IMG/VR virus record: IMGVR_UViG_3300017783_005078 | Location: 1-32,315 of that record | Origin: a virus | Length of the DNA stretch: 32,315 bases | Reading direction: 5' to 3' (one strand) | Shown here: one piece after another, positions 1 to 24,270 of the stretch | Layout of the letters: each line of letters begins with the position of its first letter | Numbering within the stretch: the stretch's first letter is position 1 | Notes under the pieces: generated by a model | Seen by the model: the letters and a program-made list of their open reading frames with translations, nothing else | Database searches by the model: none | Told to the model about the DNA's origin: nothing | Made by a program: the position numbers and the translations under genes

Positions 1-653
1 AATAAAATATCTGGTTGAATTTCGTTATATTTAGCTCTTAACCATCTACCATCTCTTGCAGTAAGTCCATTATCTACAAAATCTCTTATAGTAGCAGCGT
101 CCGTTTCACCGTTAATTGAAGTAATAATATGTTTTAATCTAGTAGAATTGCTATAATCAGAATCAGGTTCTATTTTTTTCTTTCCCTCTACTTCATCATC
201 TATAGTTGACTGATCAGAATGAGATAGAAGTTTTACAGTTACAACATTATCAGTATTAGGTAATTTAAATTCAACATTATTACCGTTTTTAAATAACTCC
301 TCGTCTATTTCTTTATTATCTAACTTAGATAAATCAACAATATAGGGTTGGCTGCCCCAATAGATTGGGTAATCTTTTCCATAAGCTAAAATACGTGCAG
401 CTACCATAAGAGCATTTTTATCTCCTACAAGTAATTCATCATAATTGACAGCTTTATCTACTATAAGTGATTTGATAGCTCTATCTATTGCTGTGCCATC
501 TTGAATATAGTTATTATTAGTAAGTATATCTTCTTCTCTGGCAGTCATATACTTCATTTCTATGGTGCCTTTCTTCAAAGGAGATGATTCAGGATATAGT
601 AATCCTTTTGAGGGAAGTTCTACCGTTTCGGTAGGTAAACTAAATTTTGACAT
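1..653 (-). CDS. T4 gp26-like baseplate hub protein, 3' end outside window
   Basis: Partial gene: the start codon is at 651-653 and the reading frame stays open for 217 codons to the window edge. The N-terminus reads as a run typical of T4-type baseplate (gp26-like) proteins: LPTETVELPSKGLLYPE, then KGTIEMKYMTAREEDILT, then ARILAYGKDYPIYWG. In T4 relatives this small baseplate protein takes part in hub/wedge assembly and follows the tail genes. Here it lies 53 bases after a GT8-like gene and downstream of sheath and tube, which fits a tail-assembly block. No Shine-Dalgarno sequence precedes the ATG; the upstream stretch is A/T rich and holds a TATTTATA box about 30 bases away. The motif match is from memory of the family; a profile search against the T4 baseplate protein family would settle it. 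Confidence 0.75.
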   Translation of the reverse strand, partial: MSKFSLPTETVELPSKGLLYPESSPLKKGTIEMKYMTAREEDILTNNNYIQDGTAIDRAIKSLIVDKAVNYDELLVGDKNALMVAARILAYGKDYPIYWGSQPYIVDLSKLDNKEIDEELFKNGNNVEFKLPNTDNVVTVKLLSHSDQSTIDDEVEGKKKIEPDSDYSNSTRLKHIITSINGETDAATIRDFVDNGLTARDGRWLRAKYNEIQPDIL

Positions 654-9822: not shown

Positions 9823-10786
9823 TTTTATTATGATTTGCGTAATTTAATTTATTATATTCATTATGTACTCTTCCTAAATTCATTTCACTTTTCGCAAAAG
9901 TTAGAGGGTGTCCACCGATATATCTAGCCATATAGCTCCAAGAAGATGGTGGGCTATGAATTATTGTTTCAGTATAGCTCAAACTAAAAAAATCTATTAA
10001 GTCATACCCCATATCTTTTAACTGTAGTCTAGGATCTAGAAATTTTGCGTCGTTAAGTATTTTTTTATTTTCTTTAACAATATCTTTGCAGGTTTTTATC
10101 CTACCGGGGTATTTAGTTCTGTAGTATTCGATAGCATTCTCATCAACATCTATTCCTATAAAAAACTTTGCATTTTTATCTTTTTTAATTAGGTCATCTA
10201 TTATATCAAAATAAATTTGATCTCTTATAAAAGGGTAGTTTTTATCACATTTAGTACATAGTTTATAGTACCTCATGTAAGGTTTAGGTATGGATAATTT
10301 ATCATAATGGTCTAAATATACCCCGTTTCCTCTTCTTATATGAATACCAGTACGGCCCTGTACTGTGGCTTTTATTTTTTCGTGAATAATTTTATTTTTT
10401 ATTTTCACAGAACTAAAAGTATCTGTTTTTGGATCAAAAAAAGCTAGAACCAGATCTAGAGTATTTCCGTAATTAAAAGCATTAGTGTACGATAGTTGAT
10501 TATTTAATTTTATTTTATCATTTTTTATCCATTCTTCAACTTCTATATCTACAATAGGAGTAGTTTTTTTATTTATTTCATATAGAGTAGTATATTCAGT
10601 ATTTGGAAAATCTATTAAAGTAAGTTCGGGAAACTCTTCAGGTAGTACTTTTATTATATGGTTGTTACCCATACTTTTATTTAGTATACAAGCTGCCAGC
10701 CAGGTAAACAATCGGTTTCCCCAACCAGAATCTTTATTCTTCACGTCATCCCAGGGGTCTCTTAAAAATATTGTAGGTCTAGACAT
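9779..10786 (-). CDS. Fucosyltransferase-like protein (GT11/O-FucT-type)
   Basis: The 335-residue protein has the two patterns that mark GDP-fucose-using transferases of the GT11, GT23 and GT65 group: an N-terminal GWGNRLFTWLAACIL (21-35, like GxGNQxFxxxxA) and a central GIHIRRGNGVYLD (147-159, like HxRRGDY, the GDP-fucose-binding motif). A C-terminal DFFSLSYTETIIHSPPSSWSYMA matches the family's third motif with Ser-rich end. It therefore probably transfers fucose or a related deoxyhexose in the cytoplasm. It overlaps the upstream radical SAM gene by 8 bases. No GDP-fucose synthesis genes are in the window, so the donor must come from the host or from elsewhere in the phage. Confidence 0.7.
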   Translation of the reverse strand: MSRPTIFLRDPWDDVKNKDSGWGNRLFTWLAACILNKSMGNNHIIKVLPEEFPELTLIDFPNTEYTTLYEINKKTTPIVDIEVEEWIKNDKIKLNNQLSYTNAFNYGNTLDLVLAFFDPKTDTFSSVKIKNKIIHEKIKATVQGRTGIHIRRGNGVYLDHYDKLSIPKPYMRYYKLCTKCDKNYPFIRDQIYFDIIDDLIKKDKNAKFFIGIDVDENAIEYYRTKYPGRIKTCKDIVKENKKILNDAKFLDPRLQLKDMGYDLIDFFSLSYTETIIHSPPSSWSYMARYIGGHPLTFAKSEMNLGRVHNEYNKLNYANHNKNEYKLQFISRDNII

Positions 10787-12011
10787 ACTTTTTTAATTCA
10801 GGGTAATTTTTTCCTACTATATCAAATGTAGATTCTTTTCTATACCTATCTAAAATAGTAAACTTATTATATTCTATCTTTAACTCTTTTTCTTTTGGCT
10901 GAGTGCTATACATGAACTTAATCAAGCCGTCAATATCTGTTTGGTTGGATCCCCAGTCGTGTTTATCCCATTTACTTTTTATTCTATCTTTTGTTTCAAC
11001 TGGGAGAGTATATAGGCACATATGGGAAGCGTTGTGTATTACATTTATCCATAGTGAGAATTCCGGTGTATGTTTTTTAATCCAATCGTCAAACTCAGGC
11101 AATTCGTAAGCATTTATCCAAGATAAGGTGTACGTGTAGTTAAAAAATAGTTTATCTAAGTGTATGTACTCTTTATACAGTGAATAAAAGTTAAAAATGT
11201 TTAACTTCACTTTTTCCCATTCAGCATTTTTTCTCAAATACTCAAATGTAGTTCCAAATCCATCTATACTTAAACCTATCCCTACCTGTTTAAAGTTATC
11301 TGCAATTCTTCTTAATAGTGCCTCGTTACATAAAGTACCATTAGTAGACATATTTAAAGTTATATCTTTTGCGAATCCTTTTTTAATCATTAATTCCCAA
11401 GCATTTTCCCAGTTTTTAGTGTAAAAAGGTTCTCCTCCAACAATTTCTATTCTTTTAGCATAGGGTAACCATTCTTCCATTGAAGTTATAAATTCACTCT
11501 TTGTTCCTCCAGCCTGTCCGTGTGGTAATTCGTAAAGGTGATTACTAATGCCGCTTATGTCCGACGAAGGCATGGTTTTTAGTTCTTTATACCATTCAGT
11601 ACTGTGGGAACTACCACAGCTCCTACACTTTAAATTACAGGCATTAGTTAGTATAACTTGAAAATCGATTGGATATTCAGATAAAGGTTTTTTCTCTAAA
11701 TTTTCGGGGGTTGCCCATTCTCCTAAGTGGTCTTTAATAATTTTATTATAATTTTCTCTCTTAGAAGTATACCCATTTTCTTCATCTTTCCAGCATACTT
11801 CACAATTTTTAGGCTTTTTGCCTTGAGTAAATTCTTCTCTAAGATTATTCATATAGTCACTATGAAATATATCTTTAATGTTATCTAATTGAGTATAATA
11901 ATTGCTTCCATCAGGTTTGGTAACTTGTTCTTTTGAAATACAACAAGGACGAATTGAACCGTCCGGGTCGTTAGAAAAGCCTACCCAGGGAATGGCACAT
12001 AAACTTTTCAT
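10779..12011 (-). CDS. Radical SAM protein with N-terminal twitch/SPASM-like domain (copy 5, CC type)
   Basis: The 410-residue protein carries a radical SAM core with the [4Fe-4S] motif CNLKCRSC (Cys125, Cys129, Cys132) and the SAM-binding GGEP at 192-195. In front of it is a Cys-rich domain with Cys5 (CAIPW), Cys23-Cys24 (RPCC), and Cys70/Cys73 (NCEVCW), a pattern seen at the C-terminus of SPASM enzymes but placed N-terminally here. Such enzymes modify peptides or sugars by radical chemistry; the substrate of this architecture is unknown to me. It is the last of five radical SAM genes and is joined to the next upstream one by an ATGA overlap. Confidence 0.88.
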   Translation of the reverse strand: MKSLCAIPWVGFSNDPDGSIRPCCISKEQVTKPDGSNYYTQLDNIKDIFHSDYMNNLREEFTQGKKPKNCEVCWKDEENGYTSKRENYNKIIKDHLGEWATPENLEKKPLSEYPIDFQVILTNACNLKCRSCGSSHSTEWYKELKTMPSSDISGISNHLYELPHGQAGGTKSEFITSMEEWLPYAKRIEIVGGEPFYTKNWENAWELMIKKGFAKDITLNMSTNGTLCNEALLRRIADNFKQVGIGLSIDGFGTTFEYLRKNAEWEKVKLNIFNFYSLYKEYIHLDKLFFNYTYTLSWINAYELPEFDDWIKKHTPEFSLWINVIHNASHMCLYTLPVETKDRIKSKWDKHDWGSNQTDIDGLIKFMYSTQPKEKELKIEYNKFTILDRYRKESTFDIVGKNYPELKKYV

Positions 12012-13249
12012 ATAACTTTAATTTTAAATTTATCTTTATATGGTTCCCATTCGGGTAAATAATCGTAAATTTTTACGTTCCTTGTTCTATCCATAATTCT
12101 TATAAATGAATAGAATCTATCTGCATCTCTAAAATTTGGTTTTCTATCTAATTCAACTTTAAGTTTATGTATTTCATGTTCTTCTAAATACTTTATATTA
12201 CTTAAAATTTTAGCTTTCATTTCATCAGGTATTAAACTAACATGCATATGATCAGGGTAATGAACATAATTATGGGCAATAAATAGATTACTATCGTCAG
12301 CAAACTTTTTAAAATTATCTATATTAAAAACATTTAAACAGCTTACTGTTTGACATAATTCTAAAGTAAATATATCTCGATACTTTAATATCTTATTTAA
12401 GGACTTCATTATTTGATTCCAATCTGAGGGGAAACGAACATAGTAGTTTCTTTCTTCGATATCATCTATAGATAAATGAATTCTAATATTTTTAAAGTTT
12501 TTCCAAATTTCAATAAACTTATCAGGGAACTGAGTGCAATTTAAACTGTAGTGTAGATCAATATCCTTAGAAGACCCATCTTCAATAAATTTCTCTAAAA
12601 AATAACCGTGCTCTTTAATTAAAGTTGGTTCTCCACCATTAATCCAGATTTCCTGCAAGTTGTCACATTTAGAATAAAGTTCATCATAGAACTTATAGTC
12701 CCTATACCATTCAGTTTTTATGTCTACTTTATAATAATCATTTTCGAACTCTGTTCCTTTTAGACCAGGTAGGTCTTGATGCCACCTGTTAGATGAGAAT
12801 GGATTACAAGTAGTACACTTTAAATTGCATACGGTACCTAATCTTAATTCAACGTATTTGTAATTAACTTTTATTAAACTTCCATCTGGGTTTGTGTTAG
12901 GGAGACAGTCTTTGATATGTTTTGCATATAATGTGTTAGCTTCTTGCCTTTTAGATCCTACACCTTGGTCTTCATACTTAAAACATTTTTGACATACTAG
13001 CGGTTTTACTCCGTTCATCATATCTTTACGTACTGCTTTAAATCTTTTAGAGTTAGTTATAGATTCTAAGCTATCTTTAGAAAGAAATAAATGTTCTTTA
13101 TCACTCTCCTCTGTAGTAGCTGTGGACATGCTGTTTTTCATTTCTGTCACACAGCAAGGGGTAACTGTCCCGATAGGGTGAGTAGCTAAGTGTATCCATG
13201 GAAGAACACAGAAACTATCTTTTATATTATCTGTTTGTTGTTCCACCAT
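12008..13249 (-). CDS. Radical SAM protein with N-terminal twitch/SPASM-like domain (copy 4, CC type)
   Basis: This 413-residue protein has the same layout: Cys14 (FCVLPW), Cys32-Cys33 (PCC), Cys86/Cys89 (CQKC), then the radical SAM motif CNLKCTTC (Cys141, Cys145, Cys148) and NGGEP at 204-208. Between the two domains runs a basic linker with KRFKAVRKDMMNG. The C-terminal half (LHYSLNCTQFPDKF, IRIHLSIDDI) shows the repeating strand pattern of a partial TIM barrel. The start at 13249 overlaps the previous gene by 28 bases; no later ATG would retain the first cysteines. Function is inferred only as radical-based modification linked to the surrounding glycan genes. Confidence 0.88.
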   Translation of the reverse strand: MVEQQTDNIKDSFCVLPWIHLATHPIGTVTPCCVTEMKNSMSTATTEESDKEHLFLSKDSLESITNSKRFKAVRKDMMNGVKPLVCQKCFKYEDQGVGSKRQEANTLYAKHIKDCLPNTNPDGSLIKVNYKYVELRLGTVCNLKCTTCNPFSSNRWHQDLPGLKGTEFENDYYKVDIKTEWYRDYKFYDELYSKCDNLQEIWINGGEPTLIKEHGYFLEKFIEDGSSKDIDLHYSLNCTQFPDKFIEIWKNFKNIRIHLSIDDIEERNYYVRFPSDWNQIMKSLNKILKYRDIFTLELCQTVSCLNVFNIDNFKKFADDSNLFIAHNYVHYPDHMHVSLIPDEMKAKILSNIKYLEEHEIHKLKVELDRKPNFRDADRFYSFIRIMDRTRNVKIYDYLPEWEPYKDKFKIKVI

Positions 13250-14571
13250 TTGTATACTTTTTTATTATGTTTTAAATATATTTCGTTCAATACATTTTCA
13301 TTTTTTCTCCACTTATCTACTCTATGTAGGTTGGCTTTTCCCTTTTTTAGGCCCTCTTCCCAGTTGGGGTACTGTTCTTGGAAGGTTGGACGGTTTTTTA
13401 AATCTTCTAAACATTCAATCCAATTAGAGTGTTTCTCATTTCCTATTAATTTAGGTTTTATATAGTCTATTATGTCATCTAAGACTTCATTATATAGAAC
13501 TCTAGGTAGTACCTGAGGGCACATCATTATAGTGCTATCAAAAGCAAATGTAGTTTTAATTAAAGTATTTACATCTAATTCTACAGCTAAGTCAAATAGT
13601 TCTTTAAGGCTGAAAAGGCCTGGTGTAGTAATTGTAAGATCAAATGCTATTCCGTAATCACCATATTGTTTGTTTAGGAAAATATAATCTTTAAAGTTTT
13701 TAATCCAACTTTTCCATTTAATTCCATGTCTAACATATTCAACTATATCTCCTGTTCCATCAATTGAGGCACATATCTGTACTGTCTTAAAATGAGGTAA
13801 CATATCTTTTAAATCCCAATGTTTGTAAGTAGTTCGACTAAAGTTTGTATTGTATCGAATCCATACGTTTTTAGCTAGGTCATTGTCAATTAAATATTGC
13901 ATAATTTCCCAATGTATTTCCCACATAAGAGGTTCTCCACCAACCCAGTATATCTCTTCAATAGTGCCGTTCTTTACTGCTTCCCATAATTCAGCTTCTG
14001 CTACATCACGTTGAAAGTTTTCGATTGCTGGTTTGTTTTTCTTTTGAGCCCAAAAGTCGGTATTGCCATCACTATCGTAGTCTCCCATTTGTCTTCTTTC
14101 AGATTCCCATGAAGAAGAGAGCTGGTCCCCGCACATCCTACACTTAAAGTTACATAGGTTTCTAACTCTATAATCAAATGAAATAGGTACCATTTTAGTA
14201 TAGCCTGTTTCATCTGTTTTTTCAAAAGCTTCTTCTATCTTATTAGGAAATAACGTTTTATTAAAGTAATCACGGTAAATAGATATGTTAAGGAGTTTAC
14301 CGTTACACACCTGACATTGAGGTATTTCATTACCTGCCAAAAGGTCTTTTCGTATACCTTTCATATAATCTGAGTTCCAGTGATCTTTTAATGTGCCAGG
14401 ATTATATTGAGAATTTTGATCTGCATTTTCAGAGTCTAAGTACTGGGTAGCCCATTCTGCTTTTTCTCTAGAAGCACAACACATCCTTCTTTCACTTTGT
14501 GGTGAAAGATAGGTATGGGTAAATGGAGCCATACAGAAAGTTTTATTTCCATCTTTTGGTTTTACTTTCAT
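13222..14571 (-). CDS. Radical SAM protein with N-terminal twitch/SPASM-like domain (copy 3, CC type)
   Basis: The 449-residue protein has Cys13 (FCMAPF), Cys31-Cys32 (MCC), Cys86/Cys89 (CQVC), the radical SAM cluster motif CNFKCRMC (Cys140, Cys144, Cys147) and GGEP at 211-214. Later strands such as WIRYNTNFS and QICASIDGTGDIVEYVRHG follow the radical SAM barrel; the phrase EYVRHG is shared with copy 2 (AEYIRHG) and copy 1 (AEYVRYG), which ties the five proteins together. It starts within an ATGA overlap with copy 2. A second overlapping frame inside it is only a shadow. Confidence 0.88.
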   Translation of the reverse strand: MKVKPKDGNKTFCMAPFTHTYLSPQSERRMCCASREKAEWATQYLDSENADQNSQYNPGTLKDHWNSDYMKGIRKDLLAGNEIPQCQVCNGKLLNISIYRDYFNKTLFPNKIEEAFEKTDETGYTKMVPISFDYRVRNLCNFKCRMCGDQLSSSWESERRQMGDYDSDGNTDFWAQKKNKPAIENFQRDVAEAELWEAVKNGTIEEIYWVGGEPLMWEIHWEIMQYLIDNDLAKNVWIRYNTNFSRTTYKHWDLKDMLPHFKTVQICASIDGTGDIVEYVRHGIKWKSWIKNFKDYIFLNKQYGDYGIAFDLTITTPGLFSLKELFDLAVELDVNTLIKTTFAFDSTIMMCPQVLPRVLYNEVLDDIIDYIKPKLIGNEKHSNWIECLEDLKNRPTFQEQYPNWEEGLKKGKANLHRVDKWRKNENVLNEIYLKHNKKVYKWWNNKQII

Positions 14572-16193
14572 ATGGCAGTTTTCCCTTTGTTAACCTCTGA
14601 GACCTTTTTACGCCCTTTTTGAAGGTCTGCAACTAAGTCTATCATATCATCTTGTTGTTGTTCGTCTGGTTCTATATAGCCTTTTGATCCTGGGTTGGTC
14701 CACTGTGGATTAAGTACCCATCCTTCATCTTTAGCTTGCTGTAAAACCCCAGTAACGTATTTATTAGACTTAGCATCATCTCCATCTATAGCTTTAATAA
14801 GAGGAGTTAAATTAGTATCTGGTATACTTTCATACCATGCTCTTAATTCAGGGAATGCTTTTAGAAAGTCTTTTCCTCTTCTTTTATCATACTGTTGATA
14901 AAAAGATTTAAAATCTCTTTCTCTAGTTTCTAATGAAGATGTAAATTCATGACCAGTATCAACTTTTCTAATGTATTCTATTAACCTTAATAGTCCATCT
15001 CTTTCTATATCGAGAAATCCATTAGAGCCTTCATTCCAGTGATCGTTTACCCACTTTTCTATAACAGCAGCTCGTTCTAATCTTATATTAGTAGGGAGAG
15101 TAACTATAGACTGAAAAGAAGGAAAGCGTAAAATATTAAAAGACATTACTGCTGCATGGGGTCCGAATACTTTTTTTAATTGCATCATTTCATCCATAAA
15201 TTCAGTAATAGAAAATAAACACAAACTGTTTATAGTCATCATTACATTTACTGATTCTAAATTAGCTTCTTTATTAATCCTGTACATATTTTTTAACCAT
15301 ATATTCCACTCTAAACCATGTCTAATATATTCAGCTTGTAAACCAACAGCTTCGCAAGAACTATAAATACTAAATTTTTTAATGTTATGTGAAGCATCTA
15401 TTAATGCATCTAATAATTTTTTCTTTTGACCTAAATTTGAATTGACTGCGAATGGAACTTTACAGTTAGGATTATCTTTCCACCAATCCATTAATTTCCA
15501 GAAGTCAGGAGACATAGTAGGTTCTCCTCCGGTTACCCTTAATTCTCTTAAACTATATTGAAGTTCTGCTTCCCACCATTTCCAAAATGCTTCTACATAA
15601 GGATTGCCTTCATTTTTTCTTCCAAAAGGCATAGCATGAGAACCGTCATGTTGGAATGCTCCTGCTCCATCAGATACTAAATTTTGATAAGGCCCGTTTT
15701 GCTTTATATCTTTTTGCCAAGTAGTACTAAAAGAAGAGTTACAGTATGAACAAGCAAAATTACAATTAGCATCGAAAGCAATTTCTAAAGTCTTAAGGTC
15801 AACATCTTCTGTATAACCCATGGTTTCTTTAGCATCTTTTAATTCTTCATCCGTATATATAACTGATTTATATACTCTATCTGAGATTTTATCTTTTCCT
15901 AGATCTTCTATTTTCCAGCAGTATTCACATTCTTTAGGTCTAATACCTTCCATCATCTGCTTACGTACAGCTTTCTTATACTTTGTGTTATGCAGTGCTT
16001 TATAGCTAAATTTTAATTCATCTAAGGGTATCTTATGTGCAGGAGGGTGATGACAAGATGTTGTCTGCCCATTACCTAACCAAATAGTAGCATTATACCA
16101 TTTAGCACCGCAGAATGAAGGAGATAATTTATCTACAACCCTGTCTCTGTACTCTTGATGAGTTTCATCATCTTTTTTAGCGTATATACCCAT
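14568..16193 (-). CDS. Radical SAM protein with N-terminal twitch-like domain (copy 2, CHHP type)
   Basis: At 541 residues this is the longest of the five. Its N-terminal domain has Cys28 (FCGAKW), Cys47 in SCHHPPAHKIPL instead of the CC pair, and Cys89/Cys92 (ECEYCW). The cluster motif is CNFACSYC (Cys144, Cys148, Cys151) and the SAM motif GGEP is at 222-225. The N-terminal half is closely similar to copy 1: both have SCHHP..HKIPL.ELK, ALHNTK.KK, R.QMM and EC.YCW..ED, so they look like paralogues. Copy 2 has an extra C-terminal extension of about 70 residues, polar and with DEQQQDDMIDLVADLQKG, that copy 1 lacks. It starts in a TAATG overlap with the LamG-like gene. Confidence 0.9.
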   Translation of the reverse strand: MGIYAKKDDETHQEYRDRVVDKLSPSFCGAKWYNATIWLGNGQTTSCHHPPAHKIPLDELKFSYKALHNTKYKKAVRKQMMEGIRPKECEYCWKIEDLGKDKISDRVYKSVIYTDEELKDAKETMGYTEDVDLKTLEIAFDANCNFACSYCNSSFSTTWQKDIKQNGPYQNLVSDGAGAFQHDGSHAMPFGRKNEGNPYVEAFWKWWEAELQYSLRELRVTGGEPTMSPDFWKLMDWWKDNPNCKVPFAVNSNLGQKKKLLDALIDASHNIKKFSIYSSCEAVGLQAEYIRHGLEWNIWLKNMYRINKEANLESVNVMMTINSLCLFSITEFMDEMMQLKKVFGPHAAVMSFNILRFPSFQSIVTLPTNIRLERAAVIEKWVNDHWNEGSNGFLDIERDGLLRLIEYIRKVDTGHEFTSSLETRERDFKSFYQQYDKRRGKDFLKAFPELRAWYESIPDTNLTPLIKAIDGDDAKSNKYVTGVLQQAKDEGWVLNPQWTNPGSKGYIEPDEQQQDDMIDLVADLQKGRKKVSEVNKGKTAI

Positions 16194-16777
16194 TATATCT
16201 TATGTACAAAATTTAAATTACCTGTTGTGTCTACATACTTATCGAATATTCTTTCCTCAAAAAAATGATCACTTAAAATCTTTCCATCCTGAGATAAAGT
16301 AAATCTAAGAAGATCAAAGTCAGTATAATTTAAGTTAAAATTATTTTTTGGAAAGTTACCTGCTCCAATTATTATATGTGGGGATTCATTAATACCAAAT
16401 ACTTTATTTTCCATAGATTCGTTTACTACAACTTCGTTATTAATAAATATTTTAAAATAAAGTTTAGGTTTATGATCAAACTTTACTACTGTATGTTTAT
16501 CAACAGGTATAGGAAAAGGTAATCTATAATACCTTGGTTTATCTTCATAAGTTATTGTGATAACAGTTTCTTCTGGGTATAAATCTAAACCTGTATACCT
16601 AGGAACTAAAGTAAATATAGTTTTTTGGAGTCTAGAATTATCCCTTAATATAAAATCAAAAGAAAACTCAAACGAATGTTCTCCGGTTAATAAGAGATTA
16701 GAAGGATTAGAAGGAAAAGTATCACAAATACTGCTAGGCCAAAATAACCAAGGTTCTCCTTTATTTATTTTCAGCAT
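16193..16777 (-). CDS. Free-standing LamG/concanavalin-like jelly-roll protein
   Basis: The 194-residue protein is almost entirely beta strand and lacks enzyme motifs. Strands such as SFEFSFDFILRD, TIFTLVPRYTGLDLY, ETVITITYED, HTVVKFDHKPKLYFKIFINNEVV, and the final LLRFTLSQDGKILSD are in the order of LamG/concanavalin-type lectin domains, where an IFTL...GL.L segment and an '(Y/F)hNG' type strand recur. Similar domains seem to be inserted in the two GT7 genes just upstream. It lies between the two CHHP-type radical SAM genes, overlapping one by 17 bases and the other by 1. A carbohydrate-binding or scaffold role is inferred; no signal peptide is present. Confidence 0.55.
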   Translation of the reverse strand: MLKINKGEPWLFWPSSICDTFPSNPSNLLLTGEHSFEFSFDFILRDNSRLQKTIFTLVPRYTGLDLYPEETVITITYEDKPRYYRLPFPIPVDKHTVVKFDHKPKLYFKIFINNEVVVNESMENKVFGINESPHIIIGAGNFPKNNFNLNYTDFDLLRFTLSQDGKILSDHFFEERIFDKYVDTTGNLNFVHKI

Positions 16778-18134
16778 ACATATTAGTTAACTGGGGAAAT
16801 GTATCAGAAAAACTAGTACCTCTTCTCTTATCATACTCCTCAACAAATTTAAAAAACTCTTTCCTACTTTTTTCTTGATCATAAATTACACTATTACCTA
16901 TTGCATAATCATATGTTCGTTTAATTTTCTGTATTTCTACGTTTGAAAATCCATAGTTATTATTAGTAAATTCTTTTATACCGTAGTATAAAGCTTTCTC
17001 AGCAGATTTTAGTATTAACTCTTTATGTTCTTTATCTAATATTCTCACAGACATAAAAGAAGGCCACCTTAAGTAAGATGTATCCAACTGTATAGCTGAT
17101 ACCCAGTATCTTTTGCCGTTGGCATATTTCTTTTTCAATTTAAAAACCCTATCAATAACTTTATCATAAGTAAAAACCGATAGTGCGTTAAAAGTAGCCA
17201 TAACATTTATAGTTACTTTTGGTAATTTAGTAAGTATTTTATTTACATTAGACCAAAATTTATCAGCTTGTAATCCATATCTTACATATTCAGCTTGTTT
17301 TTCGTCTCCCTCAATAGAAGTAAATACTATTAACTCTCTTACTTTATTATTATTACATAAGTCTGTTGCTATCTCTATAAATCTATCAATAAGTTTATCT
17401 GGTACTCCTAAATTTGTATTGATTGCTAAAGATATATTACTATTCTCTTTATAATTTTCTTGTATATATTCTAATACTTTAAAAGTATCTTTAGATAATA
17501 AAGGTTCGCCGCCAGTAATTCTGAAAGTATGAAGATCTTTAAACATATCTGGCCACCATTTCCAAAAAGCTTCTATATAAGGATTGTGTTCTGAATGTTT
17601 ATAAGGAAATTCATTTTTTTTCTTTAAAAATTCTATATCGTTATAATTATTTACTTGTTTATACCCTCCATGATTCTCTATTTCTTCTACCCATTTAGAT
17701 GAATACTGAGGACCACAATAAGCACAAGCAAAATTACAAGTATTTGAAAAAGATACTTCTACATATTTAGGATTAAAGTTATCTTCCCAGTCTGAATTAA
17801 CTATATTATCGAATTGTGATATTGACCAAGGTTCAGATGATTTAAAAACTCTATCTGAATAAGAAGTAGAATTATCTTCTACATTCCAGCAGTAATTACA
17901 TTCAGATGGTTTTCTATTATTCATCATCTGTCTGCGTTTCATTTTTTTATGCTTAGTATTATGTAAAGCAGTAGGATTACTCTTTAATTCTTCTAATGGA
18001 ATTTTATGAGGAGAAGGATGGTGACAGGAATGAGTCATACCGGTACCAAGATGCATAGTAACTTGGGTCCATTTAGCTAAACAGAACCCTTTTCCAACTG
18101 AATCTAATTTATTCTTTACTTCTAGATTGGTCAT
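16761..18134 (-). CDS. Radical SAM protein with N-terminal twitch-like domain (copy 1, CHHP type)
   Basis: This 457-residue protein is the first radical SAM gene in transcription order. It has Cys18 (FCLAKW), Cys37 in SCHHPSPHKIPL, Cys79/Cys82 (ECNYCW), the cluster motif CNFACAYC (Cys133, Cys137, Cys140) and GGEP at 208-211. EAFWKWWPDMFKDLHTFRITGGEP is nearly superimposable on the same region of copy 2 (EAFWKWWEAE...LRELRVTGGEP), and both end with a YDKRRG(T/K) segment. The CHHP change removes one of the two cysteines seen in the CC type, so any auxiliary iron-sulfur cluster would be bound differently. It is coupled to the GT7 gene by an ATGA overlap. Confidence 0.9.
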   Translation of the reverse strand: MTNLEVKNKLDSVGKGFCLAKWTQVTMHLGTGMTHSCHHPSPHKIPLEELKSNPTALHNTKHKKMKRRQMMNNRKPSECNYCWNVEDNSTSYSDRVFKSSEPWSISQFDNIVNSDWEDNFNPKYVEVSFSNTCNFACAYCGPQYSSKWVEEIENHGGYKQVNNYNDIEFLKKKNEFPYKHSEHNPYIEAFWKWWPDMFKDLHTFRITGGEPLLSKDTFKVLEYIQENYKENSNISLAINTNLGVPDKLIDRFIEIATDLCNNNKVRELIVFTSIEGDEKQAEYVRYGLQADKFWSNVNKILTKLPKVTINVMATFNALSVFTYDKVIDRVFKLKKKYANGKRYWVSAIQLDTSYLRWPSFMSVRILDKEHKELILKSAEKALYYGIKEFTNNNYGFSNVEIQKIKRTYDYAIGNSVIYDQEKSRKEFFKFVEEYDKRRGTSFSDTFPQLTNMYAENK

Positions 18135-19492
18135 AACTTTACATTAAGCATTTTTGCCCAAGGAGTTAGCTTTTCTTCACTAACTAAATCATATTTTAAG
18201 GTATTTATACCTTCATTTTTATAATTAGACTTACCTTGTTGCATTTCTAATACATATCTACGTTCATTTTTAGCTGTTGTAGGTCCTTTTGCCCATTTAC
18301 CGTTAACTAAACCTTCATCTTTATGAGGTAGACATCTAAATTTACCATCTCTACGGTGAGGAATGATAGCATTATATACTACCATATCTTCTTTAACGTT
18401 AATAATATTTTCTCTATAGTCATTTTTACTTTCAGTGAGCTTCCAAATAGTTTCCCCTTGGCCTTTTATTATAACTTCACCTATTCCTCCTTTAAATCTC
18501 TTTCCTGGGTAGTTTTCTCCAAAAGAAGGAGTGTATCCTAAGTATATGTCACCATTTTTGTACTTACTACTTAACCTACCGTTGTATATTAATGGAGATT
18601 CAGTACCGTGTCCTAACTCAGCATCTGCTTCTACTCCATTTAGAAAGTAATTAACTTTCCTTTCACGTGGATTAAACTTAGCTGTAATCCAAGTCCATAA
18701 GTTATCATATCTTTTTATCCACATGTAGTTATGTTGGTGAAAAGTATTAAAAAATTGAAGAGTAAATGCTCTTGAATTATTAAAAGATAAGCCGAAATCT
18801 TCCCCTGGTATCCTAAAAATAGGATATTCATAAAATTTAGCTTCATTATCACCTATTAAATGTATAGGAGCTTTATGCTCTTGATGCTCTGCTTTAGCTA
18901 AAATAGATATTTCAAATTCTCTTTGAAAAAATCCTTTAGGTAAAGTTTCTTTAGGGACTATTATCTTAGAATCTTCACCATTAAAGTATAAATGACTAGA
19001 GAACGTATCCATACTTGTAGTGGTAACGTCGAGCATACCTTCTAAATAACATCTCCAAAATAAATCATCATCTTCCATACCCCAGTCCCAATAGTTATTA
19101 GAGTATCCATTAGTTTTTTCTACTTGTTCTTTTGAAAATATCACTGCTCCACCAAAATATTCAAAGTATTTAAGTTTATACTCTGATTGAGATATCCTTA
19201 CTGCTATATGTTGTGGATTTTCTTCTGGGTAAGAATAATCGCATGAATTATCTTCCGGTATCATGTCTATATCATGCCAAACTATGTAATCACATCCTTC
19301 TTCAAAGGCATGCTTAGCTGCTATATTTTTCATAGCACCTCTATTAAAGAGTTTATCATCTACTTGATGGGCAAAGTACATTTGAAAGTCTATTCCTGCT
19401 TCTTTTAAGAATTTTCCTACTTTTGGGATAAATTCATTAAGATGTAATTCTCTATTTCTATAGGGTACGCAAACTCCTAACTTATGACTCAT
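18131..19492 (-). CDS. GT7 (beta-1,4-galactosyltransferase-type) enzyme with inserted LamG-like domain, copy B
   Basis: The 453-residue protein has all N-terminal GT7 motifs: VPYRNR (9-14), FNRGAMKN (49-56), HDIDMIP (73-79; Asp74 and Asp76 form the metal DxD), YFGGA (112-116) and NGYSNNYWDWGMEDDD (128-143). The part that in animal enzymes ends with a metal-binding His and the dGL.sL.Y strand is found only near the end: RDGKFRCLPH (381-390, His390) and EGINTLKYDLVS (427-438). Between them, about 165-375, is a beta-rich LamG-like segment (FRIPGEDFGLSF, VNYFLNGVEA, DIYLGY, FKGGIGEVII). Thus the LamG domain seems to interrupt the catalytic domain. The enzyme should transfer a UDP-sugar, galactose-like by family. 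It is coupled by ATGA overlaps on both sides. Confidence 0.8.
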   Translation of the reverse strand: MSHKLGVCVPYRNRELHLNEFIPKVGKFLKEAGIDFQMYFAHQVDDKLFNRGAMKNIAAKHAFEEGCDYIVWHDIDMIPEDNSCDYSYPEENPQHIAVRISQSEYKLKYFEYFGGAVIFSKEQVEKTNGYSNNYWDWGMEDDDLFWRCYLEGMLDVTTTSMDTFSSHLYFNGEDSKIIVPKETLPKGFFQREFEISILAKAEHQEHKAPIHLIGDNEAKFYEYPIFRIPGEDFGLSFNNSRAFTLQFFNTFHQHNYMWIKRYDNLWTWITAKFNPRERKVNYFLNGVEADAELGHGTESPLIYNGRLSSKYKNGDIYLGYTPSFGENYPGKRFKGGIGEVIIKGQGETIWKLTESKNDYRENIINVKEDMVVYNAIIPHRRDGKFRCLPHKDEGLVNGKWAKGPTTAKNERRYVLEMQQGKSNYKNEGINTLKYDLVSEEKLTPWAKMLNVKL

Positions 19493-20916
19493 ATTCTGAC
19501 AATTAAATGATGATAACCTTTATTGAAATACTCTTCTTCAGCATATCTACAAGAAGTAATACCGTTTTTTTGATATTCGGACTTTAAAGTATAATATCTG
19601 TCTAAATATCGTAATTGATTTTTTCTACTAGTCCAGCTAACCCAGTATCCGTCTTTATATCCTGACTCTTCATGAGGAAGAACTTTAAATTTACCCTTTT
19701 TTCTATAAGGAATAGGTTTAGTTATATTGGTACTTACCTGAACTTGTTTTTGTTCACAGTTAAATACTCTTCCGTTGTTTTCTCCTTTTAAATCTAACAA
19801 TTCTGTACCGTCTACAAACTTCATATCGTAATAAGAAGTAAGATAGTCATTAGATTTAAAATTAAATAAACTATTAGTAAGATTATTACTTATTTTACTA
19901 CATTCTTTATCAGATAATGCTTCAGAATAAGTAGCAAAAGTATCGATAGTACCTTTAAACCAATTTTTTTTCATTTCTCTTTCAGGATCACCTACTCCAA
20001 GGTAAATGTATTTCTGTTTTCTTATATTTAAGAGTTTATCAAAGGTATTTTCGCCTACTTTTTGTCCATTAATATATAACTTTACTACAGGAGGTATATA
20101 ATCACTGGAATTGTGGTTTGCTCCTTTAGTATCTACTGTTATAATTGCATTATATCTACCTGATTGTAATCCTTTCGAAGGTATAGATATAGAATTTAAA
20201 TTATATTTCCAGAATTGAAAAGTCAAATCAAAAAATGAATTAACTGTTAGGGTAGTATCATAACCAGGTATACTAAAAATTGAGTTTTCATCAGTAACTA
20301 CTTCGTTAGTAAACATAATTTCATCATATCCAAAAGAAACGAATATAGAAAAGTTTCTTAAAATAGAAAGTTTATTGGGAATAGCTACAAAACTATCCTT
20401 TCCATTAAACTCTAATGCGATAGCCTCCCTTCCTTTCTGTATTAGTTGTTTACCATCCAGTTCTATATGATTTTCTAAGCATCTTAAAAGTAAATCGTCA
20501 TCTTCAAACCCCCAACCAAAATATTTATTTGAATATCCGTTTATTTGTCTGAATATATTAGAAGGAAATATGGTAACTCCTCCAAAATATTCATCAAAAA
20601 GTGTTCTTGATACACCTTCGGGTAAGTCTAGTTCAGTAATTAAATGAGTAGGTTTAGAAGTATAAGAATAATCAGCATCGATAGGTAACATATCAATGTC
20701 ATGAAATACTACATAATTACATTTTAACTCTTCTGCTTTTAAAAAACCTATATTTAGTAGTTTACCTCTATTAAAATTATTTTTTTCGGTCTGTTCTACT
20801 ATAATTATTTCAAAAATTATATCTCTATCTTCAAGATAGCGTCTTATATGGTTTAAAAAATGCTTAAGCTGATTAGGACGATTTCTATAAGGTACTATTA
20901 CGCCTAATTTATGCAT
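19489..20916 (-). CDS. GT7 (beta-1,4-galactosyltransferase-type) enzyme with inserted LamG-like domain, copy A
   Basis: The 475-residue protein is a paralogue of its neighbour. GT7 motifs are VPYRNR (8-13), FNRGKLLNIGF (48-58), HDIDMLP (72-78), YFGGV (110-114) and NGYSNKYFGWGFEDDD (126-141). The final catalytic parts, GKFKVLPH (408-415, His415) and KNGITSCRYAEEEY (450-463), lie about 265 residues later. The intervening stretch carries a LamG-like domain with FSIPGYDTTLTV, VVKLYINGQKVG, YIYLGVG and a KGTIDTFATYSEALSDKECSKI end typical of that fold. At the position of bovine Met344, which helps bind Mn, a Val (or Cys in the other copy) seems to be present. No transmembrane anchor is seen, unlike animal enzymes. 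Confidence 0.82.
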   Translation of the reverse strand: MHKLGVIVPYRNRPNQLKHFLNHIRRYLEDRDIIFEIIIVEQTEKNNFNRGKLLNIGFLKAEELKCNYVVFHDIDMLPIDADYSYTSKPTHLITELDLPEGVSRTLFDEYFGGVTIFPSNIFRQINGYSNKYFGWGFEDDDLLLRCLENHIELDGKQLIQKGREAIALEFNGKDSFVAIPNKLSILRNFSIFVSFGYDEIMFTNEVVTDENSIFSIPGYDTTLTVNSFFDLTFQFWKYNLNSISIPSKGLQSGRYNAIITVDTKGANHNSSDYIPPVVKLYINGQKVGENTFDKLLNIRKQKYIYLGVGDPEREMKKNWFKGTIDTFATYSEALSDKECSKISNNLTNSLFNFKSNDYLTSYYDMKFVDGTELLDLKGENNGRVFNCEQKQVQVSTNITKPIPYRKKGKFKVLPHEESGYKDGYWVSWTSRKNQLRYLDRYYTLKSEYQKNGITSCRYAEEEYFNKGYHHLIVRI

Positions 20917-21124
20917 CTTCTTCTGGGTCTTCTATATCTTTACCTATTTCAGGTGTACGTTTTAAAAATTCAGCTAAATAATGCTGAGTTCTTTCACTCC
21001 ACTCTTCTTTATCTATTTCTTCAAACCATAATACGAAAGCATCTAGGCTTCTACCTATTTTTTCTAGTGCTTTTACCTTACGTTCCTCTAAAAGTTGCTT
21101 TTCTAAGTCTAATTTTGAACTCAT
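20909..21124 (-). CDS. Small acidic helical protein of unknown function
   Basis: The 71-residue protein is predicted helical and strongly charged: LDLEKQLLEERKVKALEKIG at the start, a Trp-containing middle (AFVLWFEEIDKEEWSERTQHYLAEFL), and an acidic end (EIGKDIEDPEEDA). It has no Cys and no leader-like core, so it does not look like a standard radical SAM peptide substrate. It is coupled to the genes on both sides (8-base and ATGA overlaps), inside the glycosyltransferase run. Comparable small proteins occur in marine phages as far as I recall, with no assigned role. It could be an adaptor for a transferase. Confidence 0.7.
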   Translation of the reverse strand: MSSKLDLEKQLLEERKVKALEKIGRSLDAFVLWFEEIDKEEWSERTQHYLAEFLKRTPEIGKDIEDPEEDA

Positions 21125-21960
21125 ATTGTAACTATTTTATCTCTTAATTTGTTCCAGTTGCTATAATCGTTATAGTTAATATACGATAATTCCTTTAATT
21201 CTTCAACTAAAAACTCTGGGTTATTGATATCTATTTTCCAACCTGAGTTCTTAATAGCATTGTACATAGTATCATATTCTTTTGAATAAGAATACTCTTT
21301 TTTAACATCAGCTACCTTTTTTAATCTTTCTATACATGTAGAATCCCACTTAAAATGATGTACTTGAGTAAAACACTCTTCTACAGGCATTCGAAGTGGA
21401 TGTTCTTTACCCCAGCTTGTCCTATTATTACCTAGATCTACATAATGTTGACCTGAAGTAACATCTATATTACCTTTCATTAAAGTAACCTTATTAGGAC
21501 AGGCACCTGACATTGGATATCGAAAGAAACCAGCTAGTGGGAATGCTTTATGTATATCTGTCTCTCTATCTACTTTAGGAAATATACCATCTTTACCTAT
21601 GCGATCTATAAACCCACCGGTAACAAAGGAATAACCACGTTTATCACAGTGTTTTATAATGTTATCTACATTGTCTGGGTATACCTGTAGTTCATCGTCG
21701 TCAGATACTATCCACCAATCGTCCGGTTTGGTTATTTTAATAGAATTATAAATTTCTGTTACTCTTCTCCAGTTGTATTTATTTTCTGTAAATACCATGT
21801 AGGGTTCAATACCTAACTCCTCTATTTCCTGTATTATAGTATCATTATCTGATTGCTTGTAGACTGCGATATATACTTTATCTACTATATTTTCGTAATG
21901 TTTTAACATATGAGGTAAGATATGTGTATTCTCACCTACTACTGTAACTAAATTAAGCAT
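21121..21960 (-). CDS. GT2/GT92-like glycosyltransferase
   Basis: The 279-residue protein starts with a GT-A nucleotide-binding fold (LNLVTVVGENTHILPHMLKHYENIVDKVYIAVY) and has the metal site DDDE at 87-90 in WWIVSDDDELQVYP. The FVTGGFIDRIGKDG segment and the later VHHFKWD (His near the C-terminus) are seen in GT92/GT2-like proteins that act on polysaccharide. It is soluble, with no membrane segment. It lies between the methyltransferase (8-base overlap) and the small acidic protein (ATGA overlap). Donor and acceptor are unknown. Confidence 0.75.
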   Translation of the reverse strand: MLNLVTVVGENTHILPHMLKHYENIVDKVYIAVYKQSDNDTIIQEIEELGIEPYMVFTENKYNWRRVTEIYNSIKITKPDDWWIVSDDDELQVYPDNVDNIIKHCDKRGYSFVTGGFIDRIGKDGIFPKVDRETDIHKAFPLAGFFRYPMSGACPNKVTLMKGNIDVTSGQHYVDLGNNRTSWGKEHPLRMPVEECFTQVHHFKWDSTCIERLKKVADVKKEYSYSKEYDTMYNAIKNSGWKIDINNPEFLVEELKELSYINYNDYSNWNKLRDKIVTI

Positions 21961-22690
21961 GTTGTACTATAGTTAACCCAGTAGAACTAGGTTTTGTTTT
22001 TAAAATACCGTTATTAAACAAATTTAATACGTTCCATTTAGGATCTTTTAATAATTCCTTCATAAACTTCGCTGGGCCATCAGTAAATTCATGAAAATGG
22101 TCTTGATCTTTTATATCTTTAGTGACTATGTAGTCTTTTGAGTAAGATTTATCAGTATCGTGAATAGATACTATACCTTTTGGTGATAATAACTTACTAT
22201 ATAGTTCAAAATCTTGTTTTACGTCTTTATAAGAATGTCCAGCATCGATATGTAAGTAATCTACCTTAATATCTTCTTTAACAAAGAAGTTATAATAAGC
22301 TTTTTCAGTAGTATCGTTTATGATACGCGGACAAAAGGTCTCTCTAAAGAAAGAATCTTTATTTAACCAATCTACTTCACCGCCTATTTCATTAGCTGCG
22401 TCAACTATAAAGGTGACTCCTATGTCTCCCCAGCTCATACCGTTATCTCCTTCAAATATACCAGCTTCATGTAAGTCTTGTCTTGCTCTAGTCATTATCC
22501 TTGGTATAAATCCTCCTCCAGAGCCTAAACATACACATACTTTAGCTCTCATATACTGTATAATAGAGTAGATTAGTAAACCGTCACCTAAATCGTCGTC
22601 TGTCGCACCATGAGTCCATCTATATGTAACAGGTTTATCTTTATTGTTAGTAATATTTTCTTTTATGTACCTTTTATCTAGTATACCCAT
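21953..22690 (-). CDS. Class I SAM-dependent methyltransferase
   Basis: The 245-residue protein has the SAM-binding loop VCVCLGSGGGFIPRIM (motif I), then VDYLHIDAGHSYKDVKQDFELYSKLLSPKGIVSIHDTD, the signature of the methyltransferase-24 type found in sugar and cephalosporin-hydroxylase-like clusters. These enzymes often methylate a hydroxyl group on a sugar; metal-dependent members use the Asp-x-x-His seen here (IDAGHSY, HDTD). It overlaps both neighbours. O-methylation of the glycan made by this cassette is the likeliest role. Confidence 0.78.
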   Translation of the reverse strand: MGILDKRYIKENITNNKDKPVTYRWTHGATDDDLGDGLLIYSIIQYMRAKVCVCLGSGGGFIPRIMTRARQDLHEAGIFEGDNGMSWGDIGVTFIVDAANEIGGEVDWLNKDSFFRETFCPRIINDTTEKAYYNFFVKEDIKVDYLHIDAGHSYKDVKQDFELYSKLLSPKGIVSIHDTDKSYSKDYIVTKDIKDQDHFHEFTDGPAKFMKELLKDPKWNVLNLFNNGILKTKPSSTGLTIVQHA

Positions 22691-23556
22691 TACCTTTTAT
22701 GTAGTTTACTTAAAGATTGCATGTTTACTTTACTATAATTAGAAATTATCCTTCTTAAGGTATTTATTTCATTAATATAGTTAAATCCTTCCGAAGAATC
22801 TAATATTTTATTCTTTTCCATCCAATAATGTCTGAAATATAGGTTAGATTCTTTACTATCTATTAAACCTTTAGTACCTTTTAACCATTTTCTGTCGCTA
22901 CTATGCCATATATCAGTGGTTAAGGGTATATATTCTATATTATGCAGGTCTAAAAGATGTTTTAGTAACAATTGTTCAGCATAAACTAAATACTTAGAGT
23001 TAGGAGCATTTAACTTAGTTAATTCTTCCATTAGTTTTAATGAAGTATTAGCATAAGATCTAGCGAATGCAGGATTAGGGTAGTAATTAAAACAGCAATT
23101 AACTGATTTATGGTTAGGTCGGTTCAATATATGGTTTGTTCTTCTTACATATTCATCTAAAGCATGAGGATAGTAGTTTTCCCCATTTTCTTCGTGTCCT
23201 ACTATAACTTTATCTTTTAGATACGGTTCAAAACTTTTATATACTAAGAAATCATGATCTAATACTACTGAAGGGGTTTTTATACTAGAAAGTATGTTTA
23301 ATTTAGAACTAGCCCAGAAGATATCTTTATTAATACTTTCATCGAATGTACATCTATATACATTATCCCATAATTCTATAGCATTTATGTCTGATAAAAA
23401 TGAATAAGTACTCTTATCACAGTATAGGGTAGTACTTGTATTAGAGTTATGCTTTTTCCACTGTATTACAGATCCTAATAGTAAAGATACTTTTAGTTCA
23501 GTATAAAAGCTAGAGTGTTTTTTGATATTTTCTAATATCCATATAACATTTACCAT
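22690..23556 (-). CDS. Putative GT-A-like glycosyltransferase, first gene of the cassette
   Basis: The 288-residue protein looks like a GT-A glycosyltransferase: an N-terminal WKKHNSNTSTTLYCDK strand-turn region, then a hydrophobic strand ending in DHD (Asp100, Asp102) in PSVVLDHDFLVYKSFE, a DxD-like metal site. NCCFNYYPNPAFARSYANTS (154-173) and AEQLLLKHLLD (near 200) resemble the acceptor part of capsular-polysaccharide type transferases. No family name can be given with certainty. It starts 15 bases after the last fibre gene and has 1-base overlap with the methyltransferase gene, so it opens the cassette. Confidence 0.6.
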   Translation of the reverse strand: MVNVIWILENIKKHSSFYTELKVSLLLGSVIQWKKHNSNTSTTLYCDKSTYSFLSDINAIELWDNVYRCTFDESINKDIFWASSKLNILSSIKTPSVVLDHDFLVYKSFEPYLKDKVIVGHEENGENYYPHALDEYVRRTNHILNRPNHKSVNCCFNYYPNPAFARSYANTSLKLMEELTKLNAPNSKYLVYAEQLLLKHLLDLHNIEYIPLTTDIWHSSDRKWLKGTKGLIDSKESNLYFRHYWMEKNKILDSSEGFNYINEINTLRRIISNYSKVNMQSLSKLHKR

Positions 23557-23571
23557 TAAGACTTATTTTTA

Positions 23572-24270
23572 TTAACAGAGAGTACCGCTAGTTATGACTC
23601 CGCTAGAATCTACTGTCATTACTTCTGTACCGTTAGAGTATTTACCCGCACTCACAGTAGTTGTCAAAGTAGCATCAGTATAGAATGCATAAGCATCAGA
23701 GAAATCTGAGCCATCTGAGGCATTCCAAAATACTGTTGTTCCTGATGCACCACAAGCAGTAGATGCAGTACTAGCGTGATAACCTATAGTTGCACTATTA
23801 CTACTTGGGGAAGTAGCCCAACAATAAAAATTAGTCACCGATGTATGATCAGTAGCAGTTAAATCTAAAGTAGCATTAGTAGATATCGTTGTAGACCCTC
23901 CAGTATCTGAGGTCCATTTTTGAAATACATAAGGATAAGTAGGAGATGCAACTAACCTGACTGTAGTGTTATCATTAAAAGAATTATTTTTTATAGCTAA
24001 AGAACTTCCAGCACTAACTGTACCGCTTGTATAGGGTAAAGTAACTTGAGCAGTAATATTAGTTTTAGTAACTACGTTACCGTAGAATAGTTTATTACTT
24101 CTTAATTCACTGTTAACACTTAAGTTTGTAGCTCCTGGATCATCTGCTATGTCTCTAGCCCAGCCATTAGATCCAGATACTGAAATATTATCATTCCCGT
24201 CTACGTTGTTAGCCCAAGTATCTGTTGATTGAAAAGTTATATTTGTAGTTCCGTATTCTGCTACTGCCAT
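23572..24270 (-). CDS. Fibre-tip-like protein with Bacteroidota-type surface modules
   Basis: The 232-residue protein is rich in Ser, Thr, Asn and Gly. Residues 95-152 (RLVASPTYPYVFQKWTSDTGG ending in FYCWAT) resemble an InlB/Listeria-Bacteroides B-repeat with a 'F.kWt' core. The last 70 residues (163-232) form a module bracketed by Cys173 and Cys232, with a FYTDATLTTTVSAGKYSNG segment and the end SSGVITSGTLC; a very similar pattern occurs at the end of many Bacteroidota surface proteins. It is the last gene of the fibre block, and could be the receptor-binding tip or an adhesive appendage. Host assignment from this is inference. Confidence 0.6.
   Translation of the reverse strand: MAVAEYGTTNITFQSTDTWANNVDGNDNISVSGSNGWARDIADDPGATNLSVNSELRSNKLFYGNVVTKTNITAQVTLPYTSGTVSAGSSLAIKNNSFNDNTTVRLVASPTYPYVFQKWTSDTGGSTTISTNATLDLTATDHTSVTNFYCWATSPSSNSATIGYHASTASTACGASGTTVFWNASDGSDFSDAYAFYTDATLTTTVSAGKYSNGTEVMTVDSSGVITSGTLC

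Follow-up and report, generated by a model that had tools for sequence, protein, structure and literature searches.

Two adjacent genes of an uncultivated virus, which we refer to as GT7A and GT7B, encode family 7 glycosyltransferases (GT7) in which a laminin G-like (LamG) domain is nested within the catalytic domain. The genes lie in IMG/VR record IMGVR_UViG_3300017783_005078, a viral record of 32.3 kb with 32% G+C, the whole of which was analysed and is referred to below as the window. Confident structural models and sequence together demonstrate this topology. The catalytic residues are conserved among inserted relatives, the genes occur as tandem copies, and they are linked to a cassette that also codes for a GT2-like glycosyltransferase, a methyltransferase and radical SAM (rSAM) proteins. 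GT-A enzymes have usually diversified through loops or through lectin domains appended to them. The lectin-like fold described here is complete and lies inside the catalytic domain, just ahead of a metal-binding residue, in 275 distinct proteins of the set examined and only together with this one cassette.

Topology of GT7A and GT7B

We found that GT7A (protein P0001) and GT7B (P0002) are beta-1,4-galactosyltransferase-like GT-A enzymes of family 7. Both match the Pfam domains Glyco_transf_7N and Glyco_transf_7C (62.7 and 67 bits for P0001, 75.8 and 58.6 bits for P0002; cut-offs 27 and 23), and a sequence search of the PDB returned B4GALT1 and B4GALT7 as the best solved relatives (E ~1e-28 to 1e-24). 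The Pfam matches are confined to residues 2-153, and the PDB matches end at residues 146-165. The proteins start straight at the GT7 core, and a hydropathy scan detected no transmembrane-like stretch in GT7A or GT7B (top 19-residue values of 0.23 and 1.07, respectively).

The initial annotation, made from sequence alone, had placed the N-terminal GT7 motifs up to WGxEDDD by about residue 143 in both proteins, and the final catalytic pieces, GKF.xLPH and an NGI.x.(K/R)Y strand, only after residue 380, with at least 200 residues of LamG pattern between them. Each of these statements was borne out. WGxEDDD ends at residue 143 in P0001 and 141 in P0002, GKF.xLPH lies at 383-390 and 408-415, and a G(I/L)xxxxY strand starts at 428 and 452, respectively; the LamG character of the intervening stretch is confirmed by the models and by the homology of the two inserts, described next.

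Structures were predicted with AlphaFold2 from two input alignments, A1 (53 rows) and A2 (35 rows, of which only six belong to the GT7A side). Open reading frames (ORFs) shorter than 440 aa and near-copies (>88%) were left out beforehand, reducing 44 + 43 ORFs to 24 + 28; locus L043 was excluded from A1 as a fragment, and the two proteins of the window were added to give the 53 rows. The resulting models have a pLDDT of 92.6 and pTM of 0.86 for GT7A, and 90.6 and 0.84 for GT7B. When these predicted models were compared with solved structures by VIA-align, residues 1..453 of P0001 superposed on residues 178..398 of B4GALT1 (1tvy_A; 214 aligned residues, root mean square deviation 2.0 A, Z 27.4), and residues 1..475 of P0002 on residues 179..398 of the same chain (211 residues, 2.2 A, Z 26.4). 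In separate superpositions, residues 165..375 of P0001 aligned with the LamG domain of PAPP-A (Z 17.7) and with pentraxins (Z 16-17), and residues 164..396 of P0002 with LamG/pentraxin folds (best Z 22.0, to 4dqa). Foldseek alone aligned mostly the N-terminal piece (~152-158 columns) or the LamG domain.

Within alignment A2, Glyco_transf_7N and 7C were found in 35/35 proteins and Laminin_G_3 (PF13385) in 32/35, both at E 0.01. P0002 itself matches Laminin_G_3 with 28.8 bits (cut-off 27.6). A Pfam scan of P0001 gave no LamG match, and its jelly roll is assigned because of the AlphaFold model and the profile homology of its insert to that of P0002 (hhalign prob 99.3, E 2.4e-20). According to the models, then, a jelly roll of ~210-235 residues is nested between the xED helix and the strand that carries the metal-binding histidine. 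The last ~75 residues align in the models with the GT-A domain of B4GALT1 and not with LamG, the outcome that the initial annotation had expected of a structure prediction.

The insertion proposed there is supported from both directions, as the two ends of each protein fall on B4GALT1, the middle falls on LamG/pentraxin folds, and uninserted homologues have an empty site. These homologues include GT7s of bacteria (Alphaproteobacteria, Pelagibacteraceae, Planctomycetota and Parachlamydiaceae), in which the xED helix and the next strand lead directly to a segment of the form RRxGTFxxLxH...N...DGLSxLxF; the viral inserted proteins have that segment beyond the LamG domain. Using profiles of the two catalytic pieces and counting ORFs in which both occur, we found the spacing between the pieces to be bimodal among 425 ORFs of the loci examined: 3-21 residues in 62 (25 bacterial and 37 viral) and 196-292 residues in 363, with none intermediate. 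These represent 53 distinct short-spaced and 275 distinct inserted sequences.

A profile of the C-terminal piece built solely from uninserted bacterial GT7s matches P0001 at residues 381-444 (E 4.9e-12) and P0002 at 407-458 (E 3.3e-5), and none of the other proteins among the 34 of the window scores below 0.4. It recovers 353 of the 363 inserted ORFs and, over 3,460 ORFs, hits GT7s only, including two that are broken or truncated. This specificity rules out chance matches as the source of the C-terminal motifs. Ten GT7 ORFs gave no match to the C-terminal piece at all and are not counted among the 425; of these, five run off the end of a contig or locus (one is a cut copy of the window), one is a broken frame in locus L042, and two (L215, L179) are 217-aa ORFs of uninserted length; the remaining two are considered below. 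At L042:4977-6411 the GT7A frame is split into ORFs of 404 and 103 aa, either through an assembly error or because the gene has decayed.

A reading without any insertion, in which the C-terminal ~70 residues would be part of LamG or a domain of their own, has as its only footing that sequence searches by themselves stop at residue 165; with residues 1..453 and 1..475 each superposing on one B4GALT1 chain and the bacterial profile matching the very segment in question, it is refuted in the models and all but excluded.

Among the 275 distinct inserted proteins, on which all residue counts are based, the second Asp of the DxD motif is retained in 274, the base Asp of WGxEDD (Asp141 in GT7A, Asp139 in GT7B) in 273 and the C-terminal metal-binding His in 268. 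At the positions that we take to correspond to Tyr289, Trp314 and Glu317 in B4GALT1 numbering, the residue is conserved in 273, 259 and 258 proteins, respectively. Judged from this conservation, GT7A and GT7B are probably catalytically competent. Tyr at position 289 presumably favours UDP-Gal over UDP-GalNAc, and by analogy with B4GALT1 the donor may be UDP-Gal; an inverting outcome would be expected from what is known of the family.

Distribution and linkage to a conserved cassette

GT7-LamG proteins are far more widespread than the window implies. Of 550 pattern matches in IMG/VR, 506 code for family relatives, with or without the insertion. Among 50,697 records of named phages, tblastn found nothing with any of five queries: P0001, P0002, the N-terminal piece of P0001, a divergent inserted GT7 and a viral GT7 that lacks the insertion. 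Fold searches of BFVD returned partial matches only, either the GT7 N-terminal piece in giant viruses or LamG alone, which leaves others possible because Foldseek does not bridge the insert. Three genome-bin contigs of 9-23 kb (L051-L053) all carry the methyltransferase, the GT2 and the GT7 pair; rSAM1 is visible in two of them, and all three are probably phage. In this analysis, inserted GT7-LamG proteins came only from uncultivated viruses and from small genome-bin contigs. Six inserted ORFs have no match to the insert profile, and by eye their inserts show LamG-like features. We also sought other LamG fusions and found, besides 365 GT7 ORFs, 84 ORFs with a LamG match; of these 84, one is a 468-aa piece of a GT7A and all the rest are shorter than 300 aa.

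We scored the neighbourhood of GT7-LamG genes in 128 viral-type loci with flanks of at most 5-6 kb, for which reason absences at the edges are uninformative. Here GT7A is present in 127 loci, GT7B in 125, GT2 in 123, rSAM1 in 114 and the methyltransferase in 108; DUF6734 (71), rSAM2 (71) and a standalone LamG gene (62) are less frequent. Some contigs are present repeatedly among the loci, and loci sharing a GT7 were merged into groups. The methyltransferase, GT2 or rSAM1 gene lies near 165/167 inserted loci (115/117 merged groups), compared with 0/37 uninserted viral loci (0/28 groups) and 0/25 bacterial loci. In the set retrieved with the bacterial query alone, one of these cassette genes is near 32/34 inserted groups versus 0/28 uninserted viral groups. 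The two exceptional inserted groups (L202 and L212) have relatives of rSAM3 and rSAM4. Inserted groups carry two GT7 copies (89 groups), three (24) or one (4), whereas uninserted viral groups always carry one (28/28); no uninserted GT7 occurs in any of the 117 inserted groups. The tandem cluster was found in 21/21 contigs >100 kb that were searched whole, which rules out a contig artefact. Given the presence of cassette genes in 115/117 inserted but 0/28 uninserted viral groups, together with the tandem copies, insertion tracks the cassette and not merely the GT7 family.

For phylogenetic analysis the 425 ORFs were reduced to 215 by k-mer dereplication. The FastTree tree requires two to three changes between inserted and uninserted states, on a weak backbone, and a topology with one clade for all inserted proteins is not rejected by an approximately unbiased (AU) test (p 0.824), which covered 62 of the 215 dereplicated rows. 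A single origin of the insertion is thus allowed but not shown, and gain and loss are indistinguishable from these sequences. Because the inserts of GT7A and GT7B are homologous, duplication after insertion would fit.

Genomic setting in the window

The larger genes of the window lie on the minus strand. In the coding direction they comprise the end of a major head protein gene, a head-tail adaptor (Ad2), some unknown proteins, a tail-fibre-like protein that bears a Peptidase_S74 chaperone, the modification genes (a block at ~4.2-23.6 kb), a tail sheath, a tail tube and a GT8 gene. The tail sheath shares 67% identity with its counterpart in Flavobacterium phage immuto, and head, adaptor/head-completion, sheath and tube genes occur in the same order in both. 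In immuto, the slot syntenic to the modification block contains tail-fibre genes and genes annotated as structural, two of which appear LamG-like by eye. On the basis of the sheath identity, this synteny and the contents of immuto's slot, the modification block appears to occupy the host-recognition slot of an immuto-like myovirus. Marine Flavobacteriia are the probable hosts of the group to which the window belongs.

GT7A and GT7B and their conserved neighbours are listed in the table. ATGA overlaps occur at two junctions, between the start of GT7A and the stop of GT7B and between the start of rSAM1 and the stop of GT7A. The insert of GT7B is related to the standalone LamG-like protein, for which a Pfam scan gave no LamG match; the GT7A insert is not detectably related to it (hhalign prob 0.3).

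Positions of GT7A, GT7B and conserved cassette members in the window
Feature	Position	Strand	Details
Standalone LamG-like protein, 194 aa	16193..16777	-	hhalign to GT7B insert prob 93.8, E 1.6e-7; 62/128 loci
rSAM1, N-twitch radical SAM, conserved cassette member	16761..18134	-	NF033640 E 2.2e-99; 114/128 loci; ATGA overlap with GT7A stop
GT7A (P0001), GT7 glycosyltransferase with nested LamG, 453 aa	18131..19492	-	
GT7A catalytic piece 2, ~residues 376-453	18134..18367	-	CLPH with His390, NERRY, EGINTLKY strand
GT7A inserted LamG/pentraxin-like jelly roll, ~residues 164-375	18368..19003	-	VIA Z 17.7 to PAPP-A LamG; pentraxins Z 16-17
GT7A catalytic piece 1, residues 1-163	19004..19492	-	HDID (D74, D76), YFGG (112-115), WGMEDDD (137-143)
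GT7B (P0002), GT7 glycosyltransferase with nested LamG, 475 aa	19489..20916	-	
GT7B catalytic piece 2, ~residues 397-475	19492..19728	-	LPH with metal-binding His415, NQLRY, GITSCRY strand
GT7B inserted LamG/pentraxin-like jelly roll, ~residues 164-396	19729..20427	-	Laminin_G_3 at 272-338; VIA Z 22.0 to 4dqa
GT7B catalytic piece 1, residues 1-163	20428..20916	-	HDID metal motif (D73, D75), WGFEDDD (135-141)
GT2-like glycosyltransferase, cassette member	21121..21960	-	PF13704 E 6.9e-5, under Pfam cut-off; 123/128 loci
Methyltransf_24 methyltransferase, cassette member	21953..22690	-	108/128 loci
DUF6734 protein, frequent cassette neighbour	22690..23556	-	71/128 loci

Five radical SAM genes (10779-18134) surround the standalone LamG gene. 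Four of them match NF033640 (N-twitch radical SAM, NCBIfam cut-off 170) with 333, 316, 308 and 270 bits, and the fifth (12008-13249), scanned with Pfam alone, matches Radical_SAM and SPASM. Among named phages, rSAM1 has a weak match in two Vibrio phages only. Beside the cassette, a gene at 23572-24270 encodes a 232-aa protein with 31% Ser+Thr and 3% Lys+Arg, the highest Ser+Thr content of the 34 window proteins counted; it has a weak InlB-repeat match and is a candidate acceptor or adhesin.

The window also holds genes for a UDP-glucose dehydrogenase and for an aminotransferase of the DegT/DnrJ/EryC1 type (9217-9822), which at 201 aa against a family model of 360 positions may be a remnant or a minimal form. 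A 336-aa protein (7534-8544) has a weak dimethylargininase match (E 0.0018) and looks amidinotransferase-like by eye, which is odd for a tail locus. Two further proteins (6384-7046 and 8511-9224), with no match in a Pfam scan, begin by eye like SGNH hydrolases (SGCSYT, FGDSWTYG).

Possible function and relation to known systems

We favour a reading in which GT7A and GT7B would be soluble GT-A enzymes that are catalytically competent and inverting, with LamG placed after beta-8 and ahead of the metal-His strand, and would be produced from one translationally coupled operon with the GT2-like enzyme, the methyltransferase and the radical SAM proteins. The LamG domain would bind the cassette's own acceptor, a glycoprotein or a glycan intermediate, and would keep this acceptor at the GT-A active site, allowing the tandem enzymes to attach successive sugars to it. 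The acceptor would most likely be displayed where the phage meets its host, as a virion tail or adhesin protein encoded nearby or as a host envelope glycan. LamG may sit on the acceptor side of the enzyme. In GT-A enzymes, acceptor specificity has been tied to the hypervariable loops, among them the C-terminal tail that follows beta-8 (PMC7185993), and in our own mapping on that scheme the insertion point would fall after beta-8, at the root of this tail and before the C-terminal His. Taken as a whole, from competent enzymes to a product at the host interface, we give this reading about an even chance of being correct.

Several observations weigh against it. Two full-length ORFs (L209, L222) have the GT7 N-terminal piece and LamG but no match to the C-terminal piece. 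The position that we equate with the metal ligand Met344 of B4GALT1 is not Met, GT7A having mostly Cys or Ser there, and GT7B Ser, Val, Leu or Thr; as Met is not among the commonest residues here in bacterial relatives either, this ligand is a trait of B4GALT1 and does not define the family. A few proteins are without the Glu of xED, which is replaced in further GT7-LamG copies by Ala, His or Val, and because of this change these few may be altered or inactive. Furthermore, LamG domains are often structural or protein-binding. Finally, cassette linkage was scored by homology to genes of the window, and because the genomes share ancestry the counts are not independent events.

At L182, L188, L224 and similar loci, extra GT7-LamG copies have EDLD, HDLD or VDLD at the xED position and a more divergent insert; such copies may use another acceptor or have a scaffold role.

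The alternative that survives best concerns the target, and is compatible with LamG as an acceptor binder: the cassette would remodel a host envelope glycan (O-antigen-like or capsule) against superinfection, as PMC7029224 suggests for the host-recognition islands of pelagimyophages, with LamG binding a host glycan intermediate at the cytosolic membrane face. We regard this as a real though less than probable option. It accords with the UDP-glucose dehydrogenase, GT8 and DegT genes of the window and with the interpretation of the pelagimyophage host-recognition cluster as modifying O-chains (PMC7029224). However, the genes scanned included no recognisable flippase, polymerase or membrane protein. 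Moreover, N-twitch radical SAM proteins have, to our knowledge, no known part in O-antigen pathways.

Somewhat unlikely, in our judgement, is that the insert serves for assembly or docking, packing the tandem GT7s and the standalone LamG protein together or tethering the enzymes to LamG proteins of the virion. The occurrence of two to three LamG-bearing GT7s and a standalone relative in one operon, the homology of the GT7A and GT7B inserts, and the LamG-like appearance of immuto's structural proteins in the syntenic slot would all suit such a role, but the inserts and those structural proteins are only weakly similar (best prob 33.9, E 4.3e-4). That the insert arose by selectively neutral accretion and plays no part in catalysis or substrate choice is very improbable: the insert is more divergent in the alignment than the catalytic pieces, yet its length is narrow (196-292), its IPGYD motif is near-invariant in the aligned set, and none of the 117 inserted groups has an uninserted GT7.

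Returning to acceptor recognition by LamG, a bolder proposal, which we think unlikely, is that the cassette constitutes an undescribed protein- or glycan-modification pathway, in which LamG would provide shared substrate recognition to two or three successive GT7s and a free protein, and GT7-LamG and N-twitch rSAM enzymes would build a decoration of the virion, possibly on the Ser/Thr-rich protein at 23572-24270. The analogy is with the enzymes of ribosomally synthesised and post-translationally modified peptides, among which a leader-binding domain is shared. More generally, the GT7-LamG cassette suggests that uncultivated, mostly marine phages have a modification pathway yet to be studied, and the tie between the nested arrangement and one conserved cassette is a likely clue to how these phages decorate a surface with sugars.

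The initial annotation had stated that no described enzyme with this topology was known to it; in agreement, our literature search, covering abstracts and, for PMC7029224, PMC7185993 and PMC9614988, passages of text, turned up no description of a LamG domain nested in a GT7. The closest solved enzymes, B4GALT1 and B4GALT7 (CAZy GT7), share the GT-A fold across both catalytic pieces (Z 23-27, 26-35% identity in aligned residues) as well as the DxD, YFGG and WGxEDD motifs, the C-terminal His and the DGL-type strand, but their chains superpose without a nested domain and the Met344 ligand is replaced in the phage proteins. A further difference is that the animal enzymes are membrane-anchored in the Golgi. 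ConA-type jelly rolls of the LamG/pentraxin kind (PF13385; PAPP-A LamG, PTX3, neurexin LNS, BACOVA_03559) have the fold of the insert (Z 16-22), but the phage LamG is nested in a transferase and neither appended nor part of an adhesin. In the ppGalNAc-transferases (GT27), a retaining family, a C-terminal ricin-type lectin domain steers acceptor choice. These are likewise GT-A enzymes with an acceptor-steering lectin, and GT7 and GT27 have been grouped in the same GT-A clade (PMC7185993), but the likeness is a functional analogy only, as that lectin is appended and of a different fold and the family is retaining.

The host-recognition cluster of pelagimyophages and cyanomyophages, which lies in the structural region with glycosyltransferases and radical SAM cassettes (PMC7029224), is likewise a variable island of such genes among tail genes; there, GT8 is named as the main family, and the main text contains neither 'galactosyltransferase' nor 'lectin'. 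The uninserted GT7s of bacteria and other viruses are built from the same two catalytic pieces (36-53% identity in the matched segment for bacterial loci), but in these the pieces are 3-21 residues apart, the genes lie outside the rSAM/GT2/methyltransferase cassette, and viral loci hold a single copy. Inserted and uninserted viral GT7s therefore offer a natural comparison for whether the nested domain dictates acceptor choice.

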